NCBI GenBank assembly: GCA_025041175.1
Contig: JAKCFJ010000006.1
Location: 124,001-188,000, forward strand
Length of the DNA stretch: 64,000 nucleotides
Direction of reading: 5' to 3'
DNA from: Halobacteriales archaeon YIM A00010
Lineage (GTDB): Archaea > Halobacteriota > Halobacteria > Halobacteriales > Haloarculaceae
Shown here: piece by piece, positions 4,024 through 54,793 of the stretch
Layout of the letters: every line of letters starts with the position of its first letter
Numbering within the stretch: position 1 is the stretch's first letter
Program-made: the position numbers and the translations under genes
The notes under the pieces: generated by a model
Told to the model about the DNA's origin: nothing
What the model saw: only the letters and a program-made list of their open reading frames with translations
Database searches by the model: none

Positions 4024-4079
4024 TATGCACTAATGCATAGGCTGCATCTATGCATAGTTTTAATATGCACTAGTGCATA
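4024..4079. promoter_or_regulatory. Palindromic divergent promoter module M1
   Basis: Three dyads in 56 bases: TATGCACTAATGCATA (4024-4039), CTATGCATAG (4048-4057) and the perfect palindrome TATGCACTAGTGCATA (4064-4079), with short TTTTAA spacers. It lies between divergent genes at 3992 (minus) and 4170 (plus). Related modules sit at 6571, 8261 and 9667. A dimeric repressor or activator binding TATGCA-n4-TGCATA is inferred; no regulator gene has been identified. Confidence 0.8.
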
Positions 4080-4082
4080 GGT

Positions 4083-4169
4083 ATGGCTGGGAAGCTTGGT
4101 GCCACGGAAGAAGGTGGCCGCGTGTTGCAACCACGCGACCTCGGGCTTCTCATGTGAGGCAAGAAACCC
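4083..4169 (+). promoter_or_regulatory. Two-hairpin 5' leader with a 24-codon upstream frame
   Basis: Hairpin 1: CGCGTG (4119-4124), loop TTGCAAC, CACGCG (4132-4137). Hairpin 2: GGG-c-TTCT (4143-4150) with AGAA-a-CCC (4162-4169), whose loop holds GTGAGG, a plausible ribosome-binding site just before the ATG at 4170. An upstream frame MAGKLGATEEGGRVLQPRDL plus GLLM runs from 4083 to a stop at 4157. The same arrangement recurs at 9580-9663, and the hairpin part also at 6479-6533. Confidence 0.6.
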
Positions 4170-4490
4170 ATGTCGAGCAAATCAACGACTGAAGTTAAAG
4201 GGAAGGGATCGGATGAACGAATCGTAATCGAAGACAACGGCCAGTGGGGATGGAGTCTGGCCGTGGAAGGGAATATTATCACCGCAAGTAAACTCATCCC
4301 CCACGACGGAACGCTGCTGTACAGCACTAAAACGACCGAGCATAGTCGTAGCTCCCGCCGGCGTGGGAGCCAATTCCAACTGTCAGTCGAGCAGGTTGTC
4401 GGTCGATACTGCCAACATTCTCAGACGGAGCGATCTACACAAGAACTCCTCGCACACGTGCGAGAGGCGCGTGAAAAAGGTCAGCAGTAG
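4170..4490 (+). CDS. Hypothetical protein, 106 aa, behind the M1 leader
   Basis: Unrecognised small protein. Residues 15-50 look beta-rich (RIVIEDNGQWGWSLAVEG, a pattern seen in small haloarchaeal proteins), and the C-terminus is helical and charged. The ATG at 4170 follows the SD-bearing hairpin of the leader directly. It is the only plus-strand gene of module M1 and is followed by 190 bases without a gene before the convergent DpdA-like gene. Confidence 0.55.
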   Translation: MSSKSTTEVKGKGSDERIVIEDNGQWGWSLAVEGNIITASKLIPHDGTLLYSTKTTEHSRSSRRRGSQFQLSVEQVVGRYCQHSQTERSTQELLAHVREAREKGQQ

Positions 4491-6107: not shown

Positions 6108-6481
6108 CGGTCGCCCTCCGGTGAGAACTCACCCTCGAATTGAGAGTATTCGATGCCACGTACGATCACTCCCTGCGTATCTTCTTCGATGGTGTCACAT
6201 TCGAATTCAGTCGGGGTGATCATCCACTCGAATAGCTCCTCACATCCGACGCCTATGATCCTGAGCGTGTTGCGTTGGCGGGGGAGACATTTCGCATCCG
6301 AAAAGAACGCCTCAACCCGGAGCGAAAGCGCCTTCGCTGGATCATCATTAACTACTGCTTCCAACGCCACGCGTTGCCAAAACTCGTCATCAGGCATTGC
6401 CTCGATATCGCACACGTGCTCGTGCTCGCTCTCACCGTTCGATGCTTCACTTTTTTCAATCGTCGAGTTTGATTCCGCCAT
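6104..6481 (-). CDS. Hypothetical acidic protein, 125 aa, first gene of the M2 operon
   Basis: A polar N-terminus with a HEHVCDIEAMPDDEFW stretch leads into a predicted alpha/beta body. No family is recognised. The start at 6481 directly follows a leader hairpin identical over 55 bases to the one before the gene at 4170, although these two proteins are unrelated. The operon continues through four more genes to 4682. Confidence 0.6.
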   Translation of the reverse strand: MAESNSTIEKSEASNGESEHEHVCDIEAMPDDEFWQRVALEAVVNDDPAKALSLRVEAFFSDAKCLPRQRNTLRIIGVGCEELFEWMITPTEFECDTIEEDTQGVIVRGIEYSQFEGEFSPEGDR

Positions 6482-6533
6482 GGGTTTCTTGCCTCACATG
6501 AGAAGCCCGAGGTCGCGTGGTTGCAACACGCGG
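6479..6533 (-). repeat. Leader hairpin copy, 55 bases identical and inverted to 4118-4172
   Basis: Read on the minus strand it contains the same two hairpins (CGCGTG/CACGCG with loop TTGCAAC, then GGG-c-TTCT/AGAA-a-CCC) and ends in the ATG of the gene at 6481. The small upstream frame seen at 4083 is interrupted here by a TGA, so the RNA structure, not the peptide, is what has been preserved in this copy. Confidence 0.7.
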
Positions 6534-6570
6534 TCACTTTCTCAGTGATCTCGCGCTTCCTAGCTACACC

Positions 6571-6626
6571 TATGCACTAATGCATCATAAAACTATGCAT
6601 AGGTGCAGCCTATGTAATAGTGCATA
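6571..6626. promoter_or_regulatory. Palindromic divergent promoter module M2
   Basis: TATGCACTAATGCATC (6571-6586), CTATGCATAG (6593-6602) and TATGTAATAGTGCATA (6611-6626). It is the reverse complement of M1 in order and spacing. It separates the operon starting at 6481 (minus) from a duplicated gene start at 6659 (plus). Confidence 0.75.
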
Positions 6627-6658
6627 GGTTATATGGTGATGGGTGCTATAGTAGAAAT

Positions 6659-6709
6659 ATGGCCCAAGAAGCAGACACCGAGGCTGTGAAGGTGGAAAGT
6701 GATGAGTGA
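6659..6709 (+). pseudogene. Duplicated first codons of the gene at 3992
   Basis: Reads MAQEADTEAVKVESDE and stops. The first ten codons and about 45 upstream bases equal the start of the minus-strand gene at 3992, after which the sequence diverges. This is a copied promoter-plus-start cassette; its stop overlaps a new ATG at 6702, so it may now act as a leader peptide for downstream reading. Confidence 0.6.
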
Positions 6710-6961
6710 CGGATGGGGATTGGATGATCTGGATCAAGAGAGTCAGAATGCGATCTTCGACGCTATGTATGACGTTTCCGACCGGTGGGACGTACGATCG
6801 ACGAGGCGGAGGTGTTCTTAGAGAATGTAGGATATTTCAGATTCCATGAACATCAGCGCGACTCAGCCCGAACCGACAAGCATCAGTGTTGGAAGTGTGA
6901 GCGGCCCGTCGTTGGAAGCAGCAAAAGAATTAGCCGAGTTCTGGAGTGTGAATTTCGGTGA
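6702..6961 (+). pseudogene. Frameshifted small zinc-finger gene
   Basis: MSDGWGLDDLDQESQNAIFD and onward to DRWDV runs from 6702 to 6821. A second frame from about 6785 continues with DEAEVFLENVGYFRFHEHQR and a CWKCERP knuckle to a stop at 6961. Together they look like one gene with a frameshift near 6785. A further peptide MVKKCRHCGGKDH at 6983-7021 may be part of the same decayed gene. Family unknown. Confidence 0.35.
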
Positions 6962-8254: not shown

Positions 8255-8260
8255 GGATCA

Positions 8261-8347
8261 ATCTATGCATTGGTGCATCATAAAAACTATGCATAGATGC
8301 AGCCTATGCAATAGTGCATAGTTTTTATGATGCACCAATGCATAGAT
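8261..8347. promoter_or_regulatory. Palindromic divergent promoter module M3 with 33-bp perfect inverted repeat
   Basis: Arms 8261-8293 and 8315-8347 are perfect 33-bp reverse complements. They contain TATGCATTGGTGCATC, CTATGCATAG, TATGCAATAGTGCATA and ATGCACCAATGCATA dyads, four sites rather than three. The block lies between the minus-strand gene at 8254 and the plus-strand protease gene at 8362. As single-stranded DNA or RNA it could fold into one long hairpin. Confidence 0.85.
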
Positions 8348-8361
8348 AAGGGTGTAATACG

Positions 8362-9009
8362 ATGATGAGACAGATGCAGCTCGATGATTATGCGACCTCC
8401 ACTTGTTCATCGAGAGAGAAGCAGGGACATCAAGGCCCACCTCGGGTTGACGATCCGACTGAAGAACACAAACAGCAGTTGATCGAGCAGGCCCAAGTCC
8501 ACGCTCGAACGGTCGATTTAGATATCGACGTCGACGTGATCGAATGGGAGGTTTCAACGAATGCTCAACGAACACGTCGAGCGGGAGATTGTCGATATAA
8601 ACCCCAGACGGACCAGCTCACGATCACGCTGACGTGGGCGGCCTACGTCGCGTGGGGGTGGGAAAAATTTTCAGCGGTAGTTCGTCACGAGCTCGCCCAT
8701 GCCTACCAGTACAGTAAAACCGGTCAAAGCGGACATGGGTGGGCATTCAAGCGCCTAGCCCAACAGGTAGATACACACATCAGGTGTGAGCTATTCACGA
8801 CTGGGCGGTTGTTAGTCTATTGTGATGAAGGATGTGAAGACCACCGGAACAAGGCGAGCAAGCTAGTGAAACATCCAGAAACGGCGTATTGCCGGACACA
8901 CGATGCCTCGTTTACGATCGAACACGTGGCGACAGGTCGGACGTGGACGGATTACGACGGCTATAAACAGCAACGAGAAGCGATCGAACGCTCGGATACC
9001 GGGTGGTAA
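8362..9009 (+). CDS. SprT-like zinc metalloprotease, 215 aa
   Basis: Zinc site HELAHAYQYSK near residue 115 (HExxH) with the downstream GHGWAFKRLA segment that supplies the third ligand in SprT/Spartan proteins. The C-terminal part carries CDEGCEDHR and CRTHD cysteines, as in the SprT zinc ribbon. SprT-family proteases act on DNA-bound proteins in eukaryotes; archaeal roles are untested. The first 35 residues are low-complexity and may start instead at a second ATG. It is the right-hand gene of module M3. Confidence 0.85.
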   Translation: MMRQMQLDDYATSTCSSREKQGHQGPPRVDDPTEEHKQQLIEQAQVHARTVDLDIDVDVIEWEVSTNAQRTRRAGDCRYKPQTDQLTITLTWAAYVAWGWEKFSAVVRHELAHAYQYSKTGQSGHGWAFKRLAQQVDTHIRCELFTTGRLLVYCDEGCEDHRNKASKLVKHPETAYCRTHDASFTIEHVATGRTWTDYDGYKQQREAIERSDTGW

Positions 9010-9189
9010 CTCACCTCTTGGCTATTAAAGCGAAAACCACCATTGGTGAAGTGAGATATCCTCTCTGCGTTACGAGTGGTTAGTGCAGAACAATATAGTT
9101 CGACAGCTGATTTACCTCACTCTTCAAGATATTCGGAGAGTCACCGGTGTACCCCCGTGCGTCCGGACGTTTGTCGCCATACAGTCAGC

Positions 9190-9579
9190 TCATCGAACGT
9201 TGTCGCGTTGACGCACCCGGACAGGGAAATACCGGTCCGACTGGCCCATCACAGATGTGATCGTCACCTGCCGGACAGGAATGTTCAATAGCATACTTGA
9301 CAATCCGTGATACAAACGGTGTGTGTCGTAGTTCATCGTGTAGATCGCCACTATTGCGGCTTTGACGAGATGTTTGCAGATTTTGCCTCGGAAATGGAAA
9401 TCCGGACCATCACACGCGCCGACATCAAGGTTGACGGTGTACTGTTCCGTACCTTCAACCATCACCTCAACGGAGTTGATAACCGAAACCGCCATATCCT
9501 CGTTGCACGCCCGAACAAAGCGGTCGTGATCAATCGGTCGGTCACAATTGTTTTCAACCGAGGGTGTCGTTGTACTCAT
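9190..9579 (-). CDS. SWIM-type zinc-finger protein with an altered ligand, 129 aa
   Basis: The central segment YTVNLDVGACDGPDFHFRGK followed by ICKHLVKA matches the SWIM pattern CxCx(n)CxH, except that the second cysteine is glycine (CDG instead of CDC). SWIM modules bind DNA or protein partners. The first half is an unrecognised helical region. ATG 9579 follows directly on the SD-bearing leader hairpin. Reading on the other strand (9307-9699) is a shadow. Confidence 0.65.
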   Translation of the reverse strand: MSTTTPSVENNCDRPIDHDRFVRACNEDMAVSVINSVEVMVEGTEQYTVNLDVGACDGPDFHFRGKICKHLVKAAIVAIYTMNYDTHRLYHGLSSMLLNIPVRQVTITSVMGQSDRYFPVRVRQRDNVR

Positions 9580-9663
9580 TGGCTTCTAATCACCTTTGAG
9601 AAGCCCGGTTGGGCGCTGCAACGCCCGGCCACATTTCCTGTGACCTCCGTCCTTCTCAGCCAT
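9580..9663 (-). promoter_or_regulatory. Two-hairpin leader with 25-codon upstream frame (second full copy)
   Basis: Upstream frame MAEKDGGHRKCGRALQRPTG plus LLKGD from 9663 to a stop at 9586. Hairpin 1 is GGGCG-TTGCAG-CGCCC (9611-9626), and hairpin 2 is GGCTTCT/AGAAGCC (9581-9605) with GGTGATT in its loop. Compared with 4119-4169 the stems differ in sequence but keep pairing, and the TTGCA loop is kept. Confidence 0.6.
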
Positions 9664-9666
9664 ATC

Positions 9667-9745
9667 TATGCACTAGTGCATAATAAACTCATGTACTAAT
9701 GCATAGGCTGCATCTATGCATAGTTTTAATATGCGCCAGTGCATA
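9667..9745. promoter_or_regulatory. Palindromic divergent promoter module M4
   Basis: TATGCACTAGTGCATA (9667-9682), CATGTACTAATGCATA (9690-9705), CTATGCATAG (9714-9723) and TATGCGCCAGTGCATA (9730-9745). It drives the SWIM gene to the left; to the right only a duplicated gene start remains. Confidence 0.75.
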
Positions 9746-9754
9746 GATTGATCC

Positions 9755-9829
9755 ATGATAGGACAGAACACCACCACAATGGGGCATACCGCTACAACGT
9801 CCTTTCGATCAAGGAATACGACAAGATAG
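9755..9829 (+). pseudogene. Duplicated first codons of the gene at 8254
   Basis: MIGQNTTTMGHTATTSFRSR plus NTTR and a stop. The first eight residues repeat the start of the protein at 8254 and then diverge. It is a second case of a copied promoter-plus-start cassette in this region. Confidence 0.55.
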
Positions 9830-9983: not shown

Positions 9984-10583
9984 ATGAATAGTTCCCATCC
10001 AGATCCACCAGCAGGCTATCAAAAGCCCTACGAGCCAATGACAGCGATTTCATGGTTAGACCTATTTCCTGGTGAGGTTGGCTTACTCGTCGGCGCAGTC
10101 GGGCTATTTGGTGGGTTAGCAGGCGTTTACTCAGACATCGCAGCTGTACTTGAGGTAGTGAGGCGGGCAGCAACGCTTGACTCATTTGGGGTGTATCTCT
10201 CATTGGTTGGGGCTGTCGGGAGCTCAATCCTCTTTCACGAGGGCGTGCATGTTCTGGCAGCGCGTTTGTTGGGCTGTGACGCACATATAGAACGAAACGG
10301 TCTAGAGCCGCATGTCCGGCTTTGTGGTGGCTTTCTCTCTCGCCGTGCTGATGCAATGATTTCCCTCGCTCCGGCAGTCGTACTGACGATAGTTGGCCTG
10401 CCATTGCTAGTGGTGGTTGAGTCGGCGTTCGGGGTGGCGATCGTGGCCACGGCCTTGGTGACGAACGTCGCAGGCAGCGGCAGGGATATCGCGTCTGTAC
10501 TGGCGCTGCGACAGCTTCCACCGGGATCGCTACTATACTACAGTGATACGCAACTCGCCTACGAACCGTCGCCCGTCCGGTAA
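9984..10583 (+). CDS. DUF3267-type membrane metalloprotease, 199 aa
   Basis: HEGVHVLAARLLGC (HExxH) near residue 83 lies within a set of four to five hydrophobic segments, with a C-terminal TNVAGSGRDIASVLALRQLP motif typical of the family. It is predicted to be an integral membrane zincin with unknown substrate. The ATG at 9984 begins a polar 25-residue cytoplasmic tail. It stands alone, just before the gene-free motif field. Confidence 0.75.
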   Translation: MNSSHPDPPAGYQKPYEPMTAISWLDLFPGEVGLLVGAVGLFGGLAGVYSDIAAVLEVVRRAATLDSFGVYLSLVGAVGSSILFHEGVHVLAARLLGCDAHIERNGLEPHVRLCGGFLSRRADAMISLAPAVVLTIVGLPLLVVVESAFGVAIVATALVTNVAGSGRDIASVLALRQLPPGSLLYYSDTQLAYEPSPVR

Positions 10584-10674
10584 TCGAGCGGGGGCCGCCC
10601 GTCCGGTGGCTGGATAGGGATCGCAGTCTAGGTGGGGCCGGAGTGTCGACGTGATCGGGCATTCGGGAACGTAT

Positions 10675-11720
10675 TGCTGGCCGGGGGCCAGTCAGCTGTC
10701 GCTGGTTGCTAGTCCGGTGATTGTTGCTCAGCTGGGAGTCGAGAGTGTGGTCGCCGTGTTCAGGAGTCGGAAGCCGATGGCGTGATGGGTAGGAGTCAGG
10801 CAGTGCTGTTGGTGGTGATTGGAGCCATGGGAGTCGGGGCTGAATGACAGATCGAGAGTCAGGTGATGGTATTGCTGGTGGGGAGTTGGGGATGATGTCG
10901 TGGATTCGAGAGCTAGGGGATAGTTGGCTTGGGAGTCGGAGGATCGTCGTTGGGGGGGAGTCGGTGTAGTGTTGCTGATGAGGTAGCGGTATGCTGTCGC
11001 GGAATCAGCGGTATGGGGTGTCGGTGCTGTTACCCTCTTGAGCACCGTTATGGGGTGGTCTGACAGGCTTGGGCCTGTCAGGCCCCCCACTGCTGTCGTC
11101 GTGATCGTCGAGGAGCTGGTGTTGTTGCTACTCTGGCCCCCGGAGTGTCGTCGTGGTGCTGATGCAATGTCTCGCTATCCTTGCCTTGGCCCCCAAGGTA
11201 GTGAGACGAGCTGTGCTGTACCGGTGATTTCGAAGACTGGCCCCCTCGGCCTGTCGAGAATTTCGATGAGTTGGTGTTGTTGCTGAGCTGGCCCCCCAGA
11301 GTTCGTCGTTGCTGGTGCTGTGCAGTGATCGGGCTGTTGGCCCCCGGAATTCGTCGTTGTGATAATCGAGCACTAATTGGCCTTTCTGGCCCCCAGTGTG
11401 CTAAATCACTGGGAAGCCAGGGCTCGATCTTGCTGGCCTGACTCCCCCACGGTGTCATCGCTGTGCTGTCGCTGTCTCGCTGTTGCGGTGCTGTAGTGTG
11501 TTGCAGTGCTGTACTGCTGCTGTAAGCTTGCTCTGCTGTTTCCTCCGGTATCGACCTGAGAGGAACTCTCAGAATTGCTGTGCTCTCGCTGACTCCCTCT
11601 GAGGACCACCTATCCTGACTCCCCAGTGTTGTTGCTTGCTGGACTCCCACGGAATTCGCTGCTTCCCTGACTCCCCCAGGGCTGTCACTCGCTGCTGTAC
11701 TAGTCTTAAGCCCCCTTGAG
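10675..11720. repeat. Gene-free field of short motifs reversing orientation around a hairpin
   Basis: Left part carries GGGRGTC/GGGGGCC-type motifs (ending at 10689, 10740, 10768, 10797, 10835, 10860, 10887, 10937, 10962), spaced about 25-29 or 50 bases. Right part carries the reverse complement, GGCCCCC or GACTCCC (starting 11081, 11135, 11188, 11239, 11290, 11339, 11388, 11440, then 11591, 11617, 11642, 11669), spaced 49-54 and later 25-27. A perfect hairpin CTGACAGGC-ttgg-GCCTGTCAG sits at the switch (11060-11081). Frames crossing it are low-complexity and not credible genes. Confidence 0.7.
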
Positions 11721-12072
11721 GGCCTTCCTGCTGTCGCTGTCTTGTTGTTCCGCTGTTGGAACTGCCCTGCCTTGCAGGGTCGATATCACTAGCTGAATTC
11801 CCGGTCTCTACTGCTCTCTTGGGGGCCAGTATTTCGTCGTTATCTCTCATTTTCGATATATTGTCGCTCCCCCCTTTCGCTGGTTCTTCTCTCTATTTCT
11901 CTTCCCCACTATTCTGGGAGAGAGTGGGGACACTAGTGACGCGTTGATGAATCGGGGTCTCAGTGGCCCCTAATAAGAGTGTTAATCAGGGGTATTTAGA
12001 TAATGGGCATTAAAATAAGGGGCATAATCATGCCCCTCATATTTATGTTAGCTTGAATCTTACACATTTCAC
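11721..12072. promoter_or_regulatory. Spacer with inverted repeats before the winged-helix gene
   Basis: No gene. TCCCCACT (11903-11910) pairs with AGTGGGGA (11923-11930). GGGGCAT-aatc-ATGCCCC (12019-12036) is a perfect 7-bp hairpin about 36 bases before the ATG at 12073, in an AT-rich tract containing TATTTATG. The last is a candidate operator for autoregulation. Confidence 0.4.
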
Positions 12073-12624
12073 ATGGAAGTGGCAGTCTCCGATCTGGATA
12101 TTGAACTCGACTGGATTTCGTGTGAAATACTCATTGCCATAAACAAGAATGGACAAACAGCGACGACAAGTGAGATCAAGAGGCTCACTGGGGTAGAGGA
12201 AGGAACAAAAGTCCCCTACCGGATGAAAAGCGTGCTTGCTCCAGCGGATCTCATCGAGCTCACCCGGCGTGGAGTGGACGAAAGCGGACAGAACCTCCCG
12301 CTGAAGGCCACGCTGACCGATCACGGGGCAGCCTTAGCACAAAAGTTCGAAGAAGCTGATGATGTGGCCGACACACGGGATGTGTACACTGACAAGCTCA
12401 ACGTTCGTCTCACCCGGATTGAGTCACAGCTCGACCAACTGGACACAGATGGCGGACCTACTGACGACTCCCTGAGTGACATACAAAATCAGATCGACGA
12501 ACTCGATGAAAAGATCGAATCCCTTTACCAAAACATGGTTCGATTCCGAGACTACCTCAATGAGCGCGACGACGGAGGATATAGCGAATACGTGGAGCAA
12601 CTAGAGAACAGTGCAGAGGGATAG
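12073..12624 (+). CDS. Winged-helix regulator with C-terminal coiled coil, 183 aa
   Basis: Residues about 10-85 form a winged helix (ILIAINKNGQTATTSEIKRL then GVEEGTKVPYRMKSVLAPAD). Residues about 105-160 show heptads (LNVRLTRIESQLDQL ... IQNQIDELDEKIESLYQNM) for oligomerisation. This architecture suits a DNA-binding partition, copy-control or transfer regulator. It lies between the motif field and the converging VirD4-like gene, with only four bases between the stops. Its binding site is unknown. Confidence 0.7.
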   Translation: MEVAVSDLDIELDWISCEILIAINKNGQTATTSEIKRLTGVEEGTKVPYRMKSVLAPADLIELTRRGVDESGQNLPLKATLTDHGAALAQKFEEADDVADTRDVYTDKLNVRLTRIESQLDQLDTDGGPTDDSLSDIQNQIDELDEKIESLYQNMVRFRDYLNERDDGGYSEYVEQLENSAEG

Positions 12625-12628
12625 ATCT

Positions 12629-15600
12629 CTATCGAAGAACGTAGTCCGTTGAGCCTCCTTTCTCCGTTGATTGCTGTTCTTGTTCACTCTCTTCATTGGG
12701 AGACGAGTCAGCGGCATCATGTTCCTGCTGCTCGCTGGTTGCATTGGGTTGTTCGTCGCTAGTGGTGTCCTCAGTACACTCTGGATCGCTAGCGCTGGTA
12801 TTAGGGATGAGCGGACGTATCTCTCCCTTTTCGTAGATCTGTGGACTATCGAACTCGTCGTTGTTGTCGTCAGGGAATACGACGAACATGAAATCGTCCT
12901 CGGTTGGCCGCCGTGTCTCGCCCGACGCATCAACGAATTCGCGCTCGGGAATGAACGGTGGGCGGATCGGCTTCCAATCCTGTTTCAGCTCACCCTTCGT
13001 CTGGTAGGTCCTCTGTTCGCCGTCGACGTGAACTTCGTATCCATCGGCGGTACGCTCGTAGTATGCCGGGAATGCCTCACCATCAGCGGTAAAGACAGCC
13101 TCGTAGTCCTCGAACCGTGCGCGAACAGTTCCTTGCCCGCCTTTATCCTCCAAGACGATTTCGCCACTATCACGTTCTCGCCATTGGAGACTCTTCGTGG
13201 TTTTCGGACGGAGCACTCCGACACCCGGCTCGAGCTTCATCTCCTTGCTCAGATTGTAGAAGATCCGATCCCCGACGTTCCCCTCCTCATCGACGGAGGC
13301 CTCGCTCACGAACGTGAGTGTCCCATAGTCCGTGTTGATGTCCGTGCTTCGCCCTTCTGTGTGGTAGATGACCCGCTCTCCACGGCGCGCCCAGTACTCG
13401 AAGAGACTGTTATGACTCGGGATAGCGTCGGGATCGTCGAAGTCCTCGGGGTTGTAGCTCCCATCCTTGCAGGCGAAGACGCATTTTTTGCCCTGTTCAA
13501 CGGCTTTCCGGAGATTCGTTAGGGTTTGTTTCGGCTTCTGGAGCGTGGTGGTCTCCGCCTCGATCGCTATGTCCTTGCCGTCCGAAATCTCGTAGAGACG
13601 GCTATACTCAGTTTCACATTTCTCTTTTAATCGCTGGTACTCTGCATCGCTAGTCGCCTCTGCAAGTGGGTTGATCGGCAAATCCGCTACCCCATCGGGC
13701 AACTCCTCGCCCTCTTGTGATGGAAGCGACGCATCTGCGCCCAATACGAGAAACGTCTTCAACGATTCGCGTAGGATGTACCGATGGGCAGGTCCGCCTG
13801 CATTCTCGGCGCTGCCGGTGTCCTGTTGGAATAGTTTGTTTCGTCCAGCAGCGGTGAGAGAGACTTTCTCGGTTCCTTCACGGCGTGGCTCGACGTATTC
13901 GCCGTACATCTGTTCAATCTGATTCGAGAATTTTGCGTCCGACAATTCGATATCAGTCCGCGTCTCGAACTCTTCATGCACCCGATCGACCGTGACCAGC
14001 CTGGTGCCATCGTTGTCGTCGCTCGCTCGCACAGAACACACGAACAGCGCCTCTAGGATAGAGTCGGCCAAGAGCTGGTCAGTGTCTCCTATGTCGATGT
14101 CGACCGCACCAGATCGTTCAAGCGCCCCTTCACCGTCTCGAATCAGCACTGCATCACGGATTTCTTCGGCAGTTTGGGTCGGAACGCCATGCTCTCGAAG
14201 TTTCTCCTCAATCAGTTCATCACGCTCGGCGCGCGTTAGTAACGGAGGATACTCGGGAAGCGAGTACATCCGGAATGGTTCTGAGGCCTGCTGCTGATCG
14301 GGGAGATCGAGCGTCATCCACGCGTGGAATGGGACATCGCGTTTCAGTGTCTCTGGGTCCATCCCGATATTCTTCGCCACAAGCCGCGAGTCTTTGGGCG
14401 AGCCCGGCGAGAAACTGACCCACGTGTCGCAGTTGGCCGCAAGGGCAGGCAAAACGCTCTGAATTTGATTGGGATACTGGCAGGACAAAAACAGCGAGAG
14501 ACGGTATTTACGACTCTCTGAAAGCATCTGATCGATTGCTCCATCTTGGGTCGCAAGGTTATCGAACTCGTCGGCAATGAGATAAAACGGCGACCGTTCG
14601 CTGCGGTCCAGCTCGGCCCGCGCACGGATGACCGACCAGATCCGTCGAAAGACGGCAGTCCCGATCATCTGCTTCAAGTCACGGTCCTCACGCCCCATTC
14701 GGACAATAATCAGTTTATTGTTCTCCACCGCCTCCACGAGGTCAATTGGGGAATTCCGCAAGGACATGAATTGCCGAGCAACAGGCGATTCCACCCAATC
14801 CTTGAATCGTCGCCAGAGGGGTTCGAGTGCGTTCGAGTCCTGTTCAGCGACGTCTGCGATTTTGTCAGCTGAATCAGCCAGCAGGTTGAGGCCCGCTGCT
14901 CGCACCGTCTCGGCAAACCGGCGAGCATTTTCTGGGGACTCAACGATGTAGAAGAGATCGGCGGGGGTGAACTCGTATTTGCTCTGTGCCGATGCACGGA
15001 CAAGTGAGGCAGTCACACCGTCCATCCGTGGCCCCCAACCTTGCGAGGCTCCGAGCATATGCCGAAAGTCAGCAACCAATGACTCAACGGCCTGATCGAA
15101 TTGAGGAGAATCAGGTGATATCGACGGATTCAGGAAGTTGAATCCAGAGACGCGCCCTCGTGTGCTCCCCGGTTCGATCCACACAACATCGTCCCGTCGT
15201 CGCTCCGGCAAGATTTCAAGGAGTTCTTCGGAGTCGTCACCGCCGGGATCGATGAAACACCCGCCTGCATCCAGCTCAGCGATTTGGCGGAAGACGTTCT
15301 TCAGGAAAGTCGATTTGCCATATCCCGTTGTTCCGAAACAGGCAACATGGCGGAACATCGAACGCTGGTCGATCTTAACATCCCGTCCACGACGGGTTCC
15401 GATCCCGAGCCAGATAGGTGCATCGTCGTCCCAGCAGCCATGTTCCATCATTTTTCGTGCGCGCTCGGCGGCAAACACTACATCACGGTCAGCATCGTCA
15501 GGCAGATCAGAATCGGTGTCAATGCCATGTGCCTTGACTGGCGCTCCCTGGACCCGGTCAACGTTGTCAATACGGTAGCGGAAGGGCCACGATTCGTTGT

Positions 15601-15640
15601 CATCACTGTGCTCCGTGCCGCCTGTCTGTGTCTCACTCAT
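12629..15640 (-). CDS. VirD4/HerA-like coupling ATPase, 1003 aa
   Basis: Walker A GTTGYGKST near residue 105 and Walker B LIADEFDNLA near 350, with SVRASDDNDG-type winged-helix sequence behind the motor. The FtsK/HerA/TraD superfamily drives DNA through membrane pores. A long C-terminal extension includes a nuclease- or sensor-like stretch (RLYEISDGKDIAIEAETT, GKKCVFACKDG) and a disordered acidic/glutamine tail. There is no N-terminal membrane segment, so the coupling protein may be anchored by a neighbour. It is the last gene of the minus-strand transfer operon starting at 20735. Confidence 0.85.
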   Translation of the reverse strand: MSETQTGGTEHSDDNESWPFRYRIDNVDRVQGAPVKAHGIDTDSDLPDDADRDVVFAAERARKMMEHGCWDDDAPIWLGIGTRRGRDVKIDQRSMFRHVACFGTTGYGKSTFLKNVFRQIAELDAGGCFIDPGGDDSEELLEILPERRRDDVVWIEPGSTRGRVSGFNFLNPSISPDSPQFDQAVESLVADFRHMLGASQGWGPRMDGVTASLVRASAQSKYEFTPADLFYIVESPENARRFAETVRAAGLNLLADSADKIADVAEQDSNALEPLWRRFKDWVESPVARQFMSLRNSPIDLVEAVENNKLIIVRMGREDRDLKQMIGTAVFRRIWSVIRARAELDRSERSPFYLIADEFDNLATQDGAIDQMLSESRKYRLSLFLSCQYPNQIQSVLPALAANCDTWVSFSPGSPKDSRLVAKNIGMDPETLKRDVPFHAWMTLDLPDQQQASEPFRMYSLPEYPPLLTRAERDELIEEKLREHGVPTQTAEEIRDAVLIRDGEGALERSGAVDIDIGDTDQLLADSILEALFVCSVRASDDNDGTRLVTVDRVHEEFETRTDIELSDAKFSNQIEQMYGEYVEPRREGTEKVSLTAAGRNKLFQQDTGSAENAGGPAHRYILRESLKTFLVLGADASLPSQEGEELPDGVADLPINPLAEATSDAEYQRLKEKCETEYSRLYEISDGKDIAIEAETTTLQKPKQTLTNLRKAVEQGKKCVFACKDGSYNPEDFDDPDAIPSHNSLFEYWARRGERVIYHTEGRSTDINTDYGTLTFVSEASVDEEGNVGDRIFYNLSKEMKLEPGVGVLRPKTTKSLQWRERDSGEIVLEDKGGQGTVRARFEDYEAVFTADGEAFPAYYERTADGYEVHVDGEQRTYQTKGELKQDWKPIRPPFIPEREFVDASGETRRPTEDDFMFVVFPDDNNDEFDSPQIYEKGEIRPLIPNTSASDPECTEDTTSDEQPNATSEQQEHDAADSSPNEESEQEQQSTEKGGSTDYVLR

Positions 15641-16844: not shown

Positions 16845-17122
16845 TATGTATCACCTCCTGCTGGTGACTCTGCGTTACTCATAGCGTCGAGTGGATTGAT
16901 CCACACAACGTCGTCAGTCTGACCAGTCGCTTCGTGGGCTAGATCGGTGACGATCTTCTCCCTTTTGTCGTCGTGGGCACGGAGCCACGAGTCCCACCAC
17001 GAGGAGAGTATCGCGGTCCTTCCGATCCCAGTGAAGCCGACAATACAGCCCTCCTCGGCCACTTTGTCGGCTGTGAACGGGCCGTCGATGACAAGCCGAT
17101 CGTCAGATGTGTCTTCAGTCAT
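16844..17122 (-). CDS. Small transfer-operon protein with degenerate P-loop, 92 aa
   Basis: Contains CIVGFTGIGRTAILSSWWDS, which looks like a Walker A loop whose lysine has been replaced by arginine, then DDVVWINPLDAMSN. It reads like a detached, inactive piece of a VirD4-type ATPase. The start overlaps the VirB4 stop by four bases, and the end meets the start of the 393-aa gene. Function unknown. Confidence 0.55.
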   Translation of the reverse strand: MTEDTSDDRLVIDGPFTADKVAEEGCIVGFTGIGRTAILSSWWDSWLRAHDDKREKIVTDLAHEATGQTDDVVWINPLDAMSNAESPAGGDT

Positions 17123-19587
17123 GATTGTCTGTTATGAGTCATGTCGAGATTCGCTGCTGCGTCGGGATCGATCACCGGCACTTCCTCGGGTAACGCCTCA
17201 ACGCGGAGCGGGAACTTCCCCTCATCTTCGACCGATAACAGTGCCTGCGAGTACCCCGCGTGAGTCTGTCCCGCTGTCGCGTTAGTGATGTAGTTGACTT
17301 CCCGCTGGGTGAGATCGAGACTTTCAGCTTGCTCAGCTGTGACCTCCTTGAGTCGGTGAAGGAACTTGATCGTGCAGTTGTCGATGATCGCTTTGGCGTC
17401 CTCGCGCTCGTAGAACTCATCAAGCGTCTGGGTGATGAACTGGATCGAAAGGTCGTGATGGCGCGAGAATCGCGTTCCTTGCTCCAACCATGTCAGGCTC
17501 TCGCTGTTCTTGATTAGCCGCCACGCCTCATCGATCGGAAGAATGACGCGCTTGTCGGTTGTTTTCGCCCTCTCGTAGATCGTGTTGAACAATACTTTCG
17601 TCATCAACGATGTCTGGCTATCGGTGTCGTTCGCCTCAAGGTCGAGGTACACTACGTTCGAGCCGGAGATATCGATCTCCGTCGGTTGGCCTAAGTGACC
17701 CAGCGGCCCCCCAGGGCGGAACGGTTGGAGCGCGATTTTCAGCCCTGTTGCATGACCCTGCCAGTTCTTGACTTCCTCGTCGGGGATCTCGAATGCCGCT
17801 GCATCCGTACTCGAACTCTCAACGCCACCATCGGTTGCCGCTGCGTCTGGTGCATCCGATGAAAGGAACGCAGCAGGCGTCACCGCTTGGTCACACCACG
17901 TGGCAGCATCAGACGGTGGCACATCCGCTGCATGAGCCACCGTGTTCGGATCCGTCTCGGCAATATCCCCGAGTGTGGTGATGTCAGCTTCCTTCAGTCG
18001 ATCGGCTTCCTCCTTCGTGATGTCTGGCAACTCTGTCACAGACGCCTGTTCGGGCGCACTCGTGGCTGTGACTCGATGCCGCTCGACATCGAGACCCGGT
18101 AGATCGTCCACCACGTCGGGCGTGATTTGCATCCCAGTGTTTGAGAGATGGATATACGGCTCAGGGTTGCGGCTGATCGCGCCTAGAATAGACCGCACAT
18201 CAGGGATTGTCGGGCTCTGATTGGAGTGGGTTGCTGGATCGTTCGTGATCCCATATAATGCGTAGGTGAGATCGAGCGCAAAGGCAAGAATCGCCCGCCG
18301 TTCGGTCGTATAGCTGCTATCTCCTCCCGACGACGCATTCATTGCGAAGTAACTATCGAACATATCTAGCGCCGACGAGCGCGCTTGCTGGAATGGATCG
18401 TAGTCACCATCCATCTCCGCACGGACATGATCCGGTATGGCCTCGATTTCGAGCGGATTAATAGAGCAACTACCATCGACCGGGATGCGATCTCCGTCTA
18501 ACGCATCAACGAGGTGGTCGAAACCACCCCGTGGATCGATGATGATCACGATCGTCCCGGGATCGCGGGCGACGCGACGAAGCAGATTTAGTTTCGTGTT
18601 GAACGATTTTCCCGCGCCAAGCGTCCCTGCCACGATGGCGTTATAACTGGAGCGGGAAAACCGGTCCATCACGATCGGCGCGTCGGTGAGAGCGTGGTAG
18701 CCCATGAGCACGCCCTCCTCTTCAATGAGCGAGGTGGTCGAAAACGGGAACATTGTCCCAACTGCGCCTCCGAGCATCGTTTTGGTGCGGTTCACTCGGT
18801 CGAGATCGAGCGGACTTCCAGACACCAACCCCTCCTGCTGTCGGTAATCTGCTGGTTTAACGGTCAACCGGCGGGTTTTAAGCTTCGTTTCGATATCATT
18901 GGCCGCCTCTTCCAGCCGATCGGGATCGTCACCGCGCAAGATGACATACACTCCAACATCGAAGGCTTCGTCCTGTCCTGTCGAGAGGAGATCGTAGACA
19001 TCCTCGTGGGCCTCAAGTCGCCGCGTCGTGTCCCGTAGTGTCACATCACTGGTCTCGCTTTTCTGAGCGACTCGTACCTGTAAGTCCTCGATAGCAGATT
19101 TGAGTCGACCGATCGCATTAAGCCGGTCGTGATCCTTGATATGAATCGACACGTCGACATTTACGTGGTCGGCATCTGCAAATAGCCGTTCAAACATCTT
19201 GGGACGCGCGTATTCTGGATAGCCTTCAATATAGAGGACCTTCGCAAATATATCGCTCGTCTGGGCGTCTGTCGGCGCGATGCGGAGACTCGCAGGCGCG
19301 ATGAGATCTGCGGCGTACTTCCGCAACGACCGTGGGTCCTCGGTTGCCTTCGGTTCGGCGTCATCATCCTCCTTGGACAAGTCCTCTGGGTCAATCTGCT
19401 CAATCACCGCTTGCGCCTGTGTCGACGACACATTGGCGGCTGACGCAACCTCATCGACAACCTCATCGCTGGCTATGTTGGGAGTTTCCTCATTAGCTTC
19501 TGATCGCTTGAGGATCGCTGCTGCTGTCTCTTTGATGTAATCGATTCGTCTGGGGTCATGGTCCGTCTCGGTGGTATCGCTGCTCAT
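17119..19587 (-). CDS. virB4: VirB4/TraC-type secretion ATPase with internal helix-hairpin-helix insert, 822 aa
   Basis: An N-terminal CagE/TrbE-like region precedes Walker A GTLGAGKSF near residue 330. DPRGGFDHLVDAL and Walker B VILPIDEAWRLI (about 680) and SIQFITQTLDEF complete the motor. Between the two ATPase halves, about 495-570, is a helix-hairpin-helix module (LPDITKEEADRLKEADITTL then GDIAETDPNTVAHAADVP), unusual for the family. VirB4 powers pilus assembly and substrate transfer at the membrane. The first 70 residues are an acidic helical extension. The gene follows the VirB3/PrgI-like gene by 17 bases. Confidence 0.85.
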   Translation of the reverse strand: MSSDTTETDHDPRRIDYIKETAAAILKRSEANEETPNIASDEVVDEVASAANVSSTQAQAVIEQIDPEDLSKEDDDAEPKATEDPRSLRKYAADLIAPASLRIAPTDAQTSDIFAKVLYIEGYPEYARPKMFERLFADADHVNVDVSIHIKDHDRLNAIGRLKSAIEDLQVRVAQKSETSDVTLRDTTRRLEAHEDVYDLLSTGQDEAFDVGVYVILRGDDPDRLEEAANDIETKLKTRRLTVKPADYRQQEGLVSGSPLDLDRVNRTKTMLGGAVGTMFPFSTTSLIEEEGVLMGYHALTDAPIVMDRFSRSSYNAIVAGTLGAGKSFNTKLNLLRRVARDPGTIVIIIDPRGGFDHLVDALDGDRIPVDGSCSINPLEIEAIPDHVRAEMDGDYDPFQQARSSALDMFDSYFAMNASSGGDSSYTTERRAILAFALDLTYALYGITNDPATHSNQSPTIPDVRSILGAISRNPEPYIHLSNTGMQITPDVVDDLPGLDVERHRVTATSAPEQASVTELPDITKEEADRLKEADITTLGDIAETDPNTVAHAADVPPSDAATWCDQAVTPAAFLSSDAPDAAATDGGVESSSTDAAAFEIPDEEVKNWQGHATGLKIALQPFRPGGPLGHLGQPTEIDISGSNVVYLDLEANDTDSQTSLMTKVLFNTIYERAKTTDKRVILPIDEAWRLIKNSESLTWLEQGTRFSRHHDLSIQFITQTLDEFYEREDAKAIIDNCTIKFLHRLKEVTAEQAESLDLTQREVNYITNATAGQTHAGYSQALLSVEDEGKFPLRVEALPEEVPVIDPDAAANLDMTHNRQS

Positions 19588-19604
19588 TGTGAAACCTCCA
19601 TAGA

Positions 19605-20735
19605 TCAGCGCGTCTCATTCGCTATGCCGCCATCGGTGGCAACAGAGTGTGACGTGGGGCGATCACGAGACATCGACTCACGTGGATCACGCTCGGTATC
19701 ACGCTGAACGATCGGAATACCATGATACCGCTGGCTGGCAGGGACATCGCCAGCATTCTGCGTTGGTTCTCCCGTCCAAAACTCCTCTAACAAATCCGTT
19801 AGTCGGCTCGCTGTGGCCGGTTCAGGACGACAGCCAGGGAGTTCAGAGACGCCACGACGGATACTCTGGAGTCGGTTGGTCAGCTCCCGCTGCTGGAGAA
19901 CGAGAAGTTCGCCCTCGGACAAATCGCTACGTGACGCTCCGATAATTTCACATACTTCCCCGAGTACTGGTATATCTCGTAACGCGTCTAGAATGCCCTG
20001 ATCAGAGAGATAAACCTCCATCTCCTCCACTGCCACGATCATGTAGTATTCACGAATACTCGTCTGGCGACGCTCAAACTCAGTGGGTAACGACTCTCGG
20101 TAGGCATTGACCACGCTGCGCAAGCGGTCGTTGTCCCGGACGTCCGGATCGTCTAACCGATCTCGGTACGGCGCGACAATCTGACTCGCGTCCACTGGGC
20201 GTGCCGTCGAGTAGAGCTGTACGTCGAACGAGATGCTCCGCAGAAAATCGGCGAGGTCGTCTGATGCGGTCTCCCAGTCGGAGGCGTCTGCGAGGGCCAT
20301 GTTCGCTGGCTGCACCCGCACAGCTCCAACGAGCGCCCCGTCAGCGCGCTCGATCGAATCCCATCGTGGGAGCACTGATTCGATATTCGTAAGCGTGCGT
20401 GCTGCGTCTGGCGGACTCTCGCTGTCGTGTGGTAGCATAATGGTTTCCCCTTTCAAATCTGTGATCTGGTAGTTTACAACGTCAATCAGCCATGCGTGCG
20501 CAACTCGATGAGATGGCGCATACCAGATCACTCCGATCGTTCCGACCATCACAAGCATTCCAAGCACAATCCCGGTTAATTCCCATCCAGGAGGAGCTAT
20601 CCCGGCAAACAACGTGGCAAGCAGGAACCCCGGGAGTAGCAATTTCAGGTCAGTGGCCGTGTACTCAGTACTGAGAATCGTCTCTTCTTCGCCAAGCTGA
20701 TCGAGAATGCGCCGGGTTGTCGGCCGCTGACTCAT
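19605..20735 (-). CDS. VirB3/PrgI-like membrane protein fused to a VirB4 N-terminal-like domain, 376 aa
   Basis: Two hydrophobic segments at about 31-50 and 53-72 follow a short cytoplasmic N-terminus, as in PrgI/VirB3. The remainder (LTNIESVLPRWDSIERADGA then LVGAVRVQPANMALAD) looks like the N-terminal domain of VirB4. It is the first gene of the minus-strand transfer operon, and its promoter holds operator site A. The C-terminal 60 residues are disordered and acidic. Fusion of VirB3 and VirB4 parts is known in bacterial systems. Confidence 0.7.
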   Translation of the reverse strand: MSQRPTTRRILDQLGEEETILSTEYTATDLKLLLPGFLLATLFAGIAPPGWELTGIVLGMLVMVGTIGVIWYAPSHRVAHAWLIDVVNYQITDLKGETIMLPHDSESPPDAARTLTNIESVLPRWDSIERADGALVGAVRVQPANMALADASDWETASDDLADFLRSISFDVQLYSTARPVDASQIVAPYRDRLDDPDVRDNDRLRSVVNAYRESLPTEFERRQTSIREYYMIVAVEEMEVYLSDQGILDALRDIPVLGEVCEIIGASRSDLSEGELLVLQQRELTNRLQSIRRGVSELPGCRPEPATASRLTDLLEEFWTGEPTQNAGDVPASQRYHGIPIVQRDTERDPRESMSRDRPTSHSVATDGGIANETR

Positions 20736-22232: not shown

Positions 22233-24017
22233 TTGACTTTGATAACACATCGTACGTCCCGCCTCGCAGTTGTTGTCGTGGTTCTTCTCCCTGTCCTCAT
22301 CGCCGGGGCCACCGTCGTCAGTGCACAAGAGGGTGGAGACGATAAGGTCACTGTCGACAACGAGTGTTCCTCTGGTGGGTGGTTCGAGAAGAAGACCTGT
22401 GAAATGATGAATTCAGGTGTCGGCTGGGTCCTCACTATGATTGCCAACTTCATCGGGGGAATTATTGCTTGGGTTATCGATATGATCGTCGGAACACCCG
22501 TCCCCACCCACAACGGTGGCGATCCTGCAATTATTCAGCGGCCCGACAATCAGCCATGGCAGACGGTTTACGACTCTTGGTTATCGATTGCGGTACCGAT
22601 CGGCCTTGCTGAGTGGGGATTGATGGTGCTCGGAGTCCTGTTCTCACAGGTCTACATTTCCGGCTCGGACGCGGAACTGAAACGTCGCGAACTGCAACAC
22701 CGTACCTGGAAAGTACTGCTCGGGGTGCTGGGATCGTGGGCGATCGGGGCCACTATCTTGCATATAGCAAATGCTACCACCCACGCTATCGCCCCGACAG
22801 CAGATGATGTCGCAGGTAATCTGGCCGTCTTCGCCGCCAACGGCCAGTCAGTCGTTATCGCTGCTATACTAATGTGGCTGCTCGGGGCGACGATCTTCCT
22901 ATTCATACTTCTACTGCTTCTCGCTAGAGTCGCCGTTGTGTTTACAATGATGTGGGGCTTACCGGTGCTGATCCCGCTAGCGGCCATTGATGTTGGCCCG
23001 GTCGCGCCACTATCAAAACCAGCACGCAACATCATCGACATGTTCATTCCGTTTGCTTTTCTCACGTTGCCGATGGCCCTCGTGCTGAAGGTCGGCTATT
23101 TGGTCGTAACTGGTCTCAATCAGTCTCCGCTGGTCGCCGGAGGGTTACACTTCTTCGGAGTGAATGGGATGATTCTCCTCGGCTTCTGGATCGTCGCAGC
23201 ACTCTCACCCCTGTTCGTCTTTCATCAGGCAGGCCGGATCGCTGGATATGCCGTCTTAATGGGGAGTTCATCAATCTCAGCGGATCTCCGCAACAAAGTC
23301 CAAGACGCGAAAGAAAATGTTAATTCGCGGACCCCTCCCCGCTACGACCGGGGGCCGGAAACACACGACGTATTCGAAGGAGCACCAACCAAGGACCGTT
23401 TTGGCGGAAAATTGGATGGAGCCGTACGCGAGACAGATCGACAGACAATGCTCGAGGCTGCACAAGAGCGAGAAGCACTCGAAGCCACAAATAGTAGACA
23501 TGCGCTTGGGGCTGCAAACAACGGCAGTCCTCTCGGTGCCGCAAACAATGGCAGCGAACTAGGAACGGCACACAACGGCGCACCCCTCGGAAACGGGGAG
23601 TATGGACCGAAAGCCCCGGAGGGTGCCAGTCCGCTTGGAAAAGGTAATGTGAGAACAACAGGCGCGAGCGGAGCTAGTACAACAGGAGCAACTGCATCCG
23701 GCCCAATGATCACACGCGATAACGTCGTCCAAGTCGACCATCCCCGGGATTTGCCCTCGGGACCGGGGTATCAGATTGGGATGGTAGAGGACGGTGAATT
23801 CCAACCCGTGGCAGCCCACGACGGCCTAGGGCGCGAACCGATACTTAACGGGATGTACAACAGGTTGAATTCCGGCGTAGGGAGGTTCAGCGACGAAAGA
23901 CTACTCTTGCGGTCGAACGACGACGGGGCGTTCTACGATCTCGACTCCATGACCTATCGAGAGCAATCCTACGAGGAGATGAGCCGAAATACTTCCGATG
24001 ATGTGTTAAATAGCTAA
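22233..24017 (+). CDS. VirB6/TrbL-like polytopic membrane protein, 594 aa
   Basis: A TTG start at 22233 with GGGGTG five bases upstream precedes a signal peptide (VVVVVLLPVLIAGATVVSAQ) and about seven membrane segments up to residue 345. These include conserved-looking WGLPVLIPLAAIDVGPVAPL and an IDMFIPFAFLTLPMAL segment. The rest is a hydrophilic tail with a degenerate decapeptide repeat (LGAANNGSP, LGAANNGSE, LGTAHNGAP, LGNGEYGPK, about 425-470). VirB6/TrbL proteins form the inner channel of type IV secretion. Twelve bases separate it from the pilin-like gene. Confidence 0.75.
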   Translation: MTLITHRTSRLAVVVVVLLPVLIAGATVVSAQEGGDDKVTVDNECSSGGWFEKKTCEMMNSGVGWVLTMIANFIGGIIAWVIDMIVGTPVPTHNGGDPAIIQRPDNQPWQTVYDSWLSIAVPIGLAEWGLMVLGVLFSQVYISGSDAELKRRELQHRTWKVLLGVLGSWAIGATILHIANATTHAIAPTADDVAGNLAVFAANGQSVVIAAILMWLLGATIFLFILLLLLARVAVVFTMMWGLPVLIPLAAIDVGPVAPLSKPARNIIDMFIPFAFLTLPMALVLKVGYLVVTGLNQSPLVAGGLHFFGVNGMILLGFWIVAALSPLFVFHQAGRIAGYAVLMGSSSISADLRNKVQDAKENVNSRTPPRYDRGPETHDVFEGAPTKDRFGGKLDGAVRETDRQTMLEAAQEREALEATNSRHALGAANNGSPLGAANNGSELGTAHNGAPLGNGEYGPKAPEGASPLGKGNVRTTGASGASTTGATASGPMITRDNVVQVDHPRDLPSGPGYQIGMVEDGEFQPVAAHDGLGREPILNGMYNRLNSGVGRFSDERLLLRSNDDGAFYDLDSMTYREQSYEEMSRNTSDDVLNS

Positions 24018-32938: not shown

Positions 32939-33217
32939 CTATCCCAAAGATACCATACCAGAGGAGAGAACACTGACCTCCTTCCCGGTATACACGGCGA
33001 GGTTCTCGCCTCGACGAAAGGTGGTTTCGGAAGCAATCCAGGACGAGTCGGTTCCAAAGCGACTCTTCCTACGCAGCTCAGTCCGGCTTGCCGAGATATG
33101 TCGTTCGGACAGTATCGCCGTCACGCCACTTCCCCCACCGATAGGGACCGTGTGGACAGCCGTCGCAACCAGGCCCGCACGGGACCTTATAAGGCGATTG
33201 ACCGGCGATCGAGTCAC
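32939..33217 (-). CDS. Possible small protein downstream of repH, 92 aa
   Basis: A GTG start overlapping the repH stop codon (GTGA), the coupling seen elsewhere here. The product (VHTVPIGGGSGVTAILSERH ... ENLAVYTG) has strands that could form a small beta protein. It is less acidic than its neighbours, and plus-strand frames overlap it, so support is only the overlap. Confidence 0.35.
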   Translation of the reverse strand: MTRSPVNRLIRSRAGLVATAVHTVPIGGGSGVTAILSERHISASRTELRRKSRFGTDSSWIASETTFRRGENLAVYTGKEVSVLSSGMVSLG

Positions 33218-42411: not shown

Positions 42412-42852
42412 TCAGTTCAAGTCGTCGTAGCCACGTGCGTCTAAGATGATATCCCCGATTTCTTCTGGTGATTCGATTGCGAGCTGCAAGAGTGCATCAT
42501 CGATCTCTCGCCCGTGAGTCTCCCGCAAGCCGTTCTCTCGGAGATAAACCTTAATCTCCCATTTTGCGTCAGCCCACTCGTCCCAACGATCTTCATGCGG
42601 GTAGATCGGCCCTTGTTTGCTCTCGCTGAAGGGGAACGGGGGGCCATGCTTATTATGCCTATCTTCCTTATCATCCTGGCCATCCTCAGCATCCTCAGCA
42701 TCCTTATCATCCTCATCATCGCCAATAGGTTCCTGAGGTTGCTCATTATCCTCATCATCCTCACTATGATCAGCATCCTTAATATCCTCATTCTTCCCTT
42801 CTGTTCCCTCAAGCTGCGTTTTGATATCTCCGAACGGATCGTCATCGCTCAT
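42412..42852 (-). CDS. Acidic partner protein of ParA, 146 aa
   Basis: Residues about 20-65 are an extreme acidic run (DDEDNEQPQEPIGDDEDDKD); the C-terminal half is a folded helical domain (YPHEDRWDEWADAKWEIKVY). It overlaps the parA stop by 11 bases. Position and size suggest the adaptor (ParB-like) half of the partition system, though no known DNA-binding motif is visible. Confidence 0.6.
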   Translation of the reverse strand: MSDDDPFGDIKTQLEGTEGKNEDIKDADHSEDDEDNEQPQEPIGDDEDDKDAEDAEDGQDDKEDRHNKHGPPFPFSESKQGPIYPHEDRWDEWADAKWEIKVYLRENGLRETHGREIDDALLQLAIESPEEIGDIILDARGYDDLN

Positions 42853-52816: not shown

Positions 52817-53071
52817 ATCATTTGGATATTACTGTTATATAATATAAAACTAGGGTATTCCATACATGAATAAGTGCAAGTATATTATTAATATAACAGG
52901 GTCTGTATTTATGGAGTATTCTGGTGATTTTATTGGGCCTCGGGTTCCGCTGCGTCGTTTCCGCATCACCTCCGAAGCATACCTATTCAATTCCGGAATA
53001 TCTGATGGAAAGAGCCGGCGTAATGCCGCCGAAAAACGGGTTCTTACATCCGCTTCAGCGGCATCTCCGAC

Positions 53072-54676: not shown

Positions 54677-54793
54677 ATACAACCGTGTGCCACATCATTC
54701 TCCTTTAGTATATATTTTACCCTGATGAACACTGGTGGTGAGGAGTACGCGGGTGAAATGCTGACACTACCTGTTGCTTCCGCGTCTCGATTT

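Follow-up and report, generated by a model that had tools for sequence, protein, structure and literature searches.

Introduction

KOPS are G-rich polar octamers whose orientation reverses around a point and which are read by the winged helix of a hexameric translocase (FtsK). Iterons are regularly spaced short repeats, usually of a single motif in a single orientation, near a replication gene. The clt locus of Streptomyces consists of 7-9-bp repeats beside a translocase gene and is read by a C-terminal winged helix, according to the excerpted text of two reports (PMC3583192, PMC4170104). In the pNOB8 AspA-ParB-ParA system, AspA is described, in the portion of the report available, as a small dimeric winged-helix protein that binds a site ahead of the gene encoding it and spreads along DNA (PMC5120986). 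Archaeal conjugative plasmids encode no recognisable relaxase, as far as the excerpted account extends (PMC9905601).

Here we analyse a 64-kb stretch of haloarchaeal DNA (the window) with a non-coding field of short motifs at about 10590-11827, delimited by exact GGGRGYC sites, which is a concrete candidate for the missing archaeal transfer recognition site. The element can be found from its order and spacing alone. A search of titles and abstracts, with subscription papers and preprints outside its coverage, found no published description of the array.

Like clt, the field is a non-coding short-repeat array adjoining a translocase gene, it combines direct and inverted copies, and its repeats vary between plasmids (for clt, in the excerpts of PMC3583192 and PMC4170104); the ATPase of the window, too, is predicted by AlphaFold2 to carry a C-terminal winged helix. 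However, the field spans about 1.2 kb as against about 50-175 bp for clt in those excerpts, it interleaves two motifs (A-B-A'-B') along a 26-bp lattice, it has a separate winged-helix coiled-coil gene, and the module in the window contains T4SS-like genes (VirB4, TrbL) where clt has a lone FtsK-like protein. With its T4SS genes and its other size and order, the field falls outside the Streptomyces clt family. KOPS are scattered over the chromosome, whereas the motif of the field is at chance elsewhere in the 64-kb window, and the field has two motifs. Regular short repeats near the gene of a DNA-binding protein recall iterons, but the field alternates two motifs in both orientations and lies away from replication genes. 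With the pNOB8 system it shares an archaeal plasmid and a small winged-helix protein gene near the site; the AspA site is, however, one 23-bp palindrome where the field has about 20 sites of 7 bp, and the aspA gene overlaps parB (excerpted text of PMC5120986), whereas ParA in the window lies about 30 kb off and forms no par operon with the gene at 12073.

The motif field

The field is flanked by a DUF3267 membrane peptidase-like gene (9984-10583) and a winged-helix gene (12073-12624). Read along the plus strand, its exact sites follow in the block order A A, B B B B, A' seven times, B' five times and A, a prime marking the reverse complement. The A block (10590..10689, plus strand) holds GGGGGCC at 10590 and 10683, and the B block (10734..10962, plus strand) holds GGGAGTC at 10734, 10829, 10931 and 10956, with shorter GGAGTC copies at 10763 and 10792 inside it. 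On the minus strand, the A' block (11081..11394) comprises seven GGCCCCC at 11081, 11135, 11188, 11239, 11290, 11339 and 11388, with gaps of 54, 53, 51, 51, 49 and 49, and the B' block (11440..11675) comprises five GACTCCC at 11440, 11591, 11617, 11642 and 11669, the last four of them 26, 25 and 27 apart. The cycle continues past B' with A again (GGGGGCC, 11821..11827, plus strand). The initial annotation had reported about 20 copies of GGGRGYC; the cluster stands, the exact number being 17 within 10675-11720 and 19 with two sites outside. What had been taken for a single motif switching orientation proved instead to be two motifs, GGGGGCC (A) and GGGAGTC (B), alternating in cyclic order. The eight right-hand copies do keep the 49-54-base period ascribed to them (the seventh gap, from A' to B', is 52), and the closer copies lie 25-27 apart.

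The 19 GGGRGYC sites in 10560-11960 compare with a mean of 1.66 and a maximum of 8 in 2000 dinucleotide shuffles, and one orientation switch accommodates 18 of them (shuffle maximum 6). Twelve gaps between neighbours measure 24-29 or 48-55 bp, a number reached by 0 of 20,000 random placements that preserved site counts and halves. The comparison with shuffled sequence had been set beforehand as the refuting test, and the real field far exceeds both shuffles and random placements. Over the whole 64-kb window GGGRGYC is at chance (40 found, 36.3 expected); thus the signal is the cluster. A blind lattice scan found no other array of the same kind in the window. As first noted, the field is neither CRISPR nor coding: it departs from the CRISPR pattern of long identical repeats with fixed-length unique spacers, and it is judged non-coding because its unit of ~26 bp is no multiple of 3 and motif order is kept without reading frames.

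A perfect 9-bp hairpin with a 4-base loop lies at the B/A' switch (11060..11081). Its presence in the window was described correctly, but it is not conserved in relatives. Hairpins with stems of at least 8 bp occur in 5 of the 21 fields scanned (8 hairpins, with 5.2 expected from shuffles), and the hairpin was rejected as an organising centre for its lack of conservation.

Downstream of the field, the small winged-helix coiled-coil protein (12073..12624, plus strand) is convergent with a TraD/HerA-like coupling ATPase (DUF87, TraG-D_C; 12629..15640, minus strand). The same transfer module includes a VirB4/TraG-like ATPase (17119..19587, minus strand) and a divergent TrbL/VirB6-like membrane protein (22233..24017, plus strand). 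The window also encodes Orc1/Cdc6 (30874-32124), a RepH-like DUF5817/HTH protein (33214-36609) and a ParA (42842-43717) that does not adjoin 12073, all 19-31 kb from the field. A comparable arrangement is seen on the 42-kb plasmid NZ_CP071310, where the field (8304-9821) adjoins the coupling ATPase gene and ParA lies at 19600-20463; G039, a genome of the same genus, has a 41,997-bp contig carrying sites at places identical to those on NZ_CP071310. The genome of the window (G000) has 7 contigs, and the window lies on C6 (219,325 bp). No PF03432 relaxase was found on C6; the sole match, in a search for this family only, is on contig C3.

Fields in related haloarchaea

The observation is real and larger than first reported. 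The field order recurs with different letters in haloarchaeal relatives. The closest coupling ATPase, from Halococcus thailandensis (71% identity), has next to it a gene related to the winged-helix gene and a field of the same plan as that of the window (A GGGGGTC, B GGGATTC, A', B', A), and no long DNA match was found between the two fields. We scanned 104 loci, each read in the direction of its ATPase gene and covering the 4.5 kb that lie 5' of the 3' end of that gene. An interleaved 7-mer pair of some kind occurred in 41; of these, 21 were kept together with L076, which is the same plasmid as L044, and 19 were dropped because their 7-mers were off-lattice or coding (L049, L050, L052, L056, L057, L058, L060, L062, L065, L072, L078, L079, L088, L100, L110, L119, L128, L137 and L139). 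Three of the latter (L052, L057, L078) resemble variant fields by eye and were left out of the counts.

The kept fields differ in their motif pairs: GGGGTTC/GGGATTC in L042 and L043, GGGGTCC/GGGAGTC in L044-L048, GGGGTC/GGGATTC in L063, and GACAGTC/GGCACCC in L055, L071, L073, L081, L082, L086, L090, L121, L130, L133 and L134. L063 runs B A' B' A, with no exact A block on its left, the cycle of L134 begins one step earlier (B' A B A'), and the scan match of L046 was a mixed pair, for which the correct blocks were taken from the site listing. Interleaved scores ranged from 9 to 21 in the 21 kept loci and were at least 12 in 17 of them, a level that none of 96 genomic control segments and none of 315 shuffles attained; six of the genomic segments scored 9-11, and no shuffled segment exceeded 8. 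The nested order A-B-B'-A' scored zero in 18 of the 21 fields, the others being the window (14, from GGGGGCC and an unrelated word) and L071 and L086 (9 each). Since an inverted duplication would yield the nested order, we infer that the interleaving is probably no by-product of duplication.

As a hold-out, 13 further loci were fetched solely by homology to the winged-helix protein of NZ_CP071310, and all 13 contained the array, nine by the strict scan and the other four (L144, L145, L152, L156) by exact-site listing. L146 passed the strict scan with an odd first 7-mer, its motifs being present on listing; in L144, L145, L146, L152 and L156 the listed motifs stand in block order, apart from a few sites. 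Fields occur on Halalkalicoccus jeotgali B3 plasmid 2, Actinarchaeum halophilum NZ_CP071310 and Haladaptatus caseinilyticus NZ_CP111039, with a weaker array of different letters on Haloferax gibbonsii pHGLR3 (L078). In the first 98 loci, a field was found on 0 of 16 contigs larger than 1 Mb versus 21 of 82 smaller ones (Fisher P 0.02). However, the later fields of L144 and L145 (3.8 Mb) and L152 (1.4 Mb) lie on large contigs, and a plasmid-only rule was therefore dropped.

Some variants deserve mention in their own right. At L078 (locus 11815-13326) a long non-coding gap contains GGTGTCC on a 26-bp lattice, a further motif variant, from a genetically tractable genus, Haloferax. L049 shows a repeat field of another kind, CACCTATC (oriented 10365-10880), ahead of its winged-helix gene. 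In L183, the class-2 field at 6204-6743 is partial, and a winged-helix gene was not detected there.

The initial annotation had suggested looking for the period on other plasmids, and the ~26-bp lattice is indeed present in related haloarchaeal loci. Distances between neighbouring like sites (226) are mostly 25-27, 49-52, 74-79 and about 95-103 bp, clustering at 26 and 51, with a periodicity R of 0.70 at about 25 bp (maximum 0.26 in 1000 random sets). Intervals like 36 or 42, permissible under pure helical phasing, seldom occur. From one block to the next, 50 distances of up to 140 bp follow the lattice more loosely (R 0.40, reached by 3 of 5000 random sets). The words all fit GRNNNYC, with symmetric outer bases and an inner three particular to block and element. 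In 157 loci (2.03 Mb, overlapping copies of places included), 66 of 142 lattice arrays fit this frame, and most of the arrays outside it are the same sites in off-register reading.

Among the close relatives that were aligned, motif columns are more conserved than spacers: 97-100% versus 73-85% identity in L044/L046/L047, 95-98% versus 79% in L042/L043, 99% versus 87% in L147/L148, 87-91% versus 76% in L130/L133 and 79-100% versus 74-89% in L055/L151/L081. L045 and L048 were not usefully alignable and stood outside this comparison. The sequences thus show, for each element, two 7-bp GRNNNYC motifs in the cyclic order (B')-A-B-A'-B'-(A) on a ~26-bp lattice, with motifs better conserved than spacers and the field in a constant position upstream of the winged-helix coiled-coil gene.

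Proteins beside the field

In most relatives, as in the window, the field and the winged-helix gene lie 3' of the coupling-ATPase gene. The protein encoded at 12073, proposed at the outset as a candidate reader, turned out to be the constant neighbour of the field, also where the coupling-ATPase gene is missing. Its model shows a winged helix and long helices (mean pLDDT 78) and matches MarR-type regulators, archaeal DNA-binding proteins and TubR at similar Z; the TubR match (4asn, Z 10.4, 83 residues aligned, rmsd 2.1) is no better than the MarR-type ones. Among 29 class-2 relatives sharing motifs, the recognition-helix stretch VPSGSMxHH is the best-conserved part. As to a motif code in the recognition helix, in class 1 the helix does not track motif changes: in the class-1 alignment the window and L042 have a common helix, EGTKVPYR, with different motifs, and so do L047 and L063 (NVVLYRL).

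The tail of the coupling ATPase (residues 480-965; window 12746-14203) was modelled with AlphaFold2 in three parts (mean pLDDT 80.6): a winged helix, then a compact domain, then one that is beta-rich. All matches listed by VIA and Foldseek fall on the winged helix (model residues 38-126; best VIA match 3elk_B, Z 10.6, 88 aligned, rmsd 2.7). The compact domain has invariant PDG, EAE and Q/K, with motif and strand order like a PD-(D/E)XK nuclease, and no sequence match in Pfam or PDB was found for this PDG/EAE domain. The EAE pattern is present in 67 of 104 coupling ATPases; a tie between this motif and the field was rejected, as it occurs in 10 of 21 field loci versus 57 of 83 others. All 11 class-2 field loci lack it, so the same ATPase tail does not come with every field.

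Several genomes hold more than one field. G000 has four, on C4, C5, C6 and C7 (L182, L187, the window and L181), with two motif sets. Those on C5 and C7 are class-2 fields with a class-2 ATPase, and C4 (812 kb) has a winged-helix gene and field with no ATPase match anywhere on the contig. G313 C1 (3.8 Mb) likewise has two field copies (L144, L145) and no ATPase match; both copies there include the winged-helix gene, and their motifs take up equal relative places. G198 has a field without ATPase on C13 and one with a broken ATPase on C15. Each of these three genomes also holds another field, of the same motif class, whose ATPase is intact. ATPase-less fields fit mobilisation in trans, and also fit a loss of transfer genes from a maintenance module. 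In G310, identical motifs are found on four replicons (L148, L150, L152, L153), which argues against the motifs as a determinant of partition incompatibility.

Strand bias and folding

The field in the window (10560..11960) is T-rich on the plus strand (AT skew -0.34), with TGCTG 23 times and CAGCA 0 times on that strand. In 21 of 21 fields the T-rich strand is that of the winged-helix gene (AT skew -0.08 to -0.48); the bias peaks in the blocks closest to this gene and keeps its strand where the motifs reverse orientation. Kissing-loop RNA was rejected, since stems flanking the motifs do not exceed the frequency seen in same-orientation controls (335 sites). Locally structured RNA found no support: nine fields, folded locally on either strand, are no stabler than shuffles (z -1.2 to 1.7). 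A search of Rfam gave zero matches in the field at E up to 1. A sub-threshold match to MIR6217 at 9663-9749, outside the field, scored 25.8 bits against a cut-off of 110 and is probably chance.

Possible functions

The initial proposal of a cis-acting site on a transfer or maintenance element is supported. Our leading, still tentative, reading of the sequence is that the field is a protein-read site in cis and, most plausibly, a clt-like transfer-recognition tag. It would flag a haloarchaeal replicon as a substrate for the T4SS-like transfer machinery without relaxase that is encoded alongside, in a working mode resembling that of the Streptomyces clt locus and in a form much longer and differently ordered. 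Either the 12073 protein or the winged helix in the ATPase tail would bind neighbouring sites side by side; identity and direction could come from the three-base cores and the way they reverse; and the ATPase would load on its own element, or on co-resident ATPase-less elements with the same cores. Transfer is favoured by the position that the field and winged-helix gene take in the window and most relatives, 3' of the gene for the coupling ATPase, by the distance of 19-31 kb to Orc1/Cdc6, DUF5817/HTH and ParA, by the absence of PF03432 from the contig of the window, and by the three genomes with ATPase-less fields, all of which hold an ATPase-bearing field of the same class. Against it stand the fields on G000 C4 and G313 C1 without an ATPase match on the contig, which also fit maintenance, the many coupling-ATPase loci without a field in 4.5 kb, close ones included (L035-L041, L050, L053), the nuclease-like tail motif missing from 11 of 11 class-2 field loci, and the extreme T-richness of one strand, for which duplex binding sites do not account.

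The main rival, which we consider somewhat unlikely, is a centromere-like partition or incompatibility site that the 12073 protein would bind and spread over along the 26-bp lattice. Its appeal is that the winged-helix gene accompanies the field even at loci whose ATPase gene is missing or broken (L144, L145, L182, L186, L188), that centromere-binding proteins such as TubR (4asn, Z 10.4) and, in the excerpted report, AspA (PMC5120986) are winged-helix proteins, and that a pHGLR3 neighbour is annotated 'chromosome segregation protein'. Yet the 12073 fold matches many MarR-type regulators equally well, ParA genes lie elsewhere in both the window and NZ_CP071310, the L144 and L145 fields sit on a contig of 3.8 Mb, for which a plasmid centromere is unnecessary, and the four G310 replicons with identical motifs are hard to square with a centromere that determines specificity. 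It is unlikely, in our estimate, that we have before us a new cis element of exchangeable identity, in which a conserved GR...YC frame, recognised by a protein that is itself conserved, joins with a lineage-set three-base core in two versions to form a commutator-like A-B-A'-B' word; the cores would then be an address by which the transfer machinery distinguishes its own DNA from that of other replicons, directly or through A-A'/B-B' strand pairing, and replicons of the same address would travel together. To our knowledge, and in a literature search, interleaved order and swappable cores are not met in known sites, and this would hold even for a partition site.

A replication origin or a long operator for the transfer genes seems quite unlikely: the iteron-like spacing and the length of non-coding DNA ahead of a gene for a DNA-binding protein would suit it, but Orc1/Cdc6 and DUF5817/HTH are about 19-25 kb distant, copy number and block length vary among fields, and we know only of operators far shorter than a 1.2-kb array, which counts against the operator reading. 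Very unlikely, in our view, is a field that acts as a single strand of RNA or ssDNA, with A-A' and B-B' pairing that the order A-B-A'-B' would turn into a pseudoknot. The complement of each motif is present in interleaved order with the nested order nearly absent, and class-2 A and A' (GACAGTC/GACTGTC) differ in the central base only, blocks mostly holding one version. The strand T bias, seen in 21 of 21 fields regardless of motif orientation, is the best argument for a single-stranded phase; folding lends no support, given the ordinary frequency of motif-flanking stems, the ordinary stability of nine folded fields and the absence of an Rfam match within the field. Chance, low-complexity drift or a decayed tandem repeat is hardly credible: the compositional bias of the region would speak for it, but it is refuted by the shuffles, the genomic controls, the hold-out loci and the conservation of motifs above spacers.

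Other features of the window

Opposite-strand ORFs at 4070-4327 and 6153-6548 have a common peptide, MGFLPHMRSPRSRGCNTR, which hints at a duplicated segment. AT-rich short repeats with TGCAT lie upstream of genes at 8258-8400 and 9663-9749. The element also carries a cytochrome P450 gene (40090-41505) and a cluster of two sulfatases with a relative of the formylglycine-generating enzyme (50762-56979).
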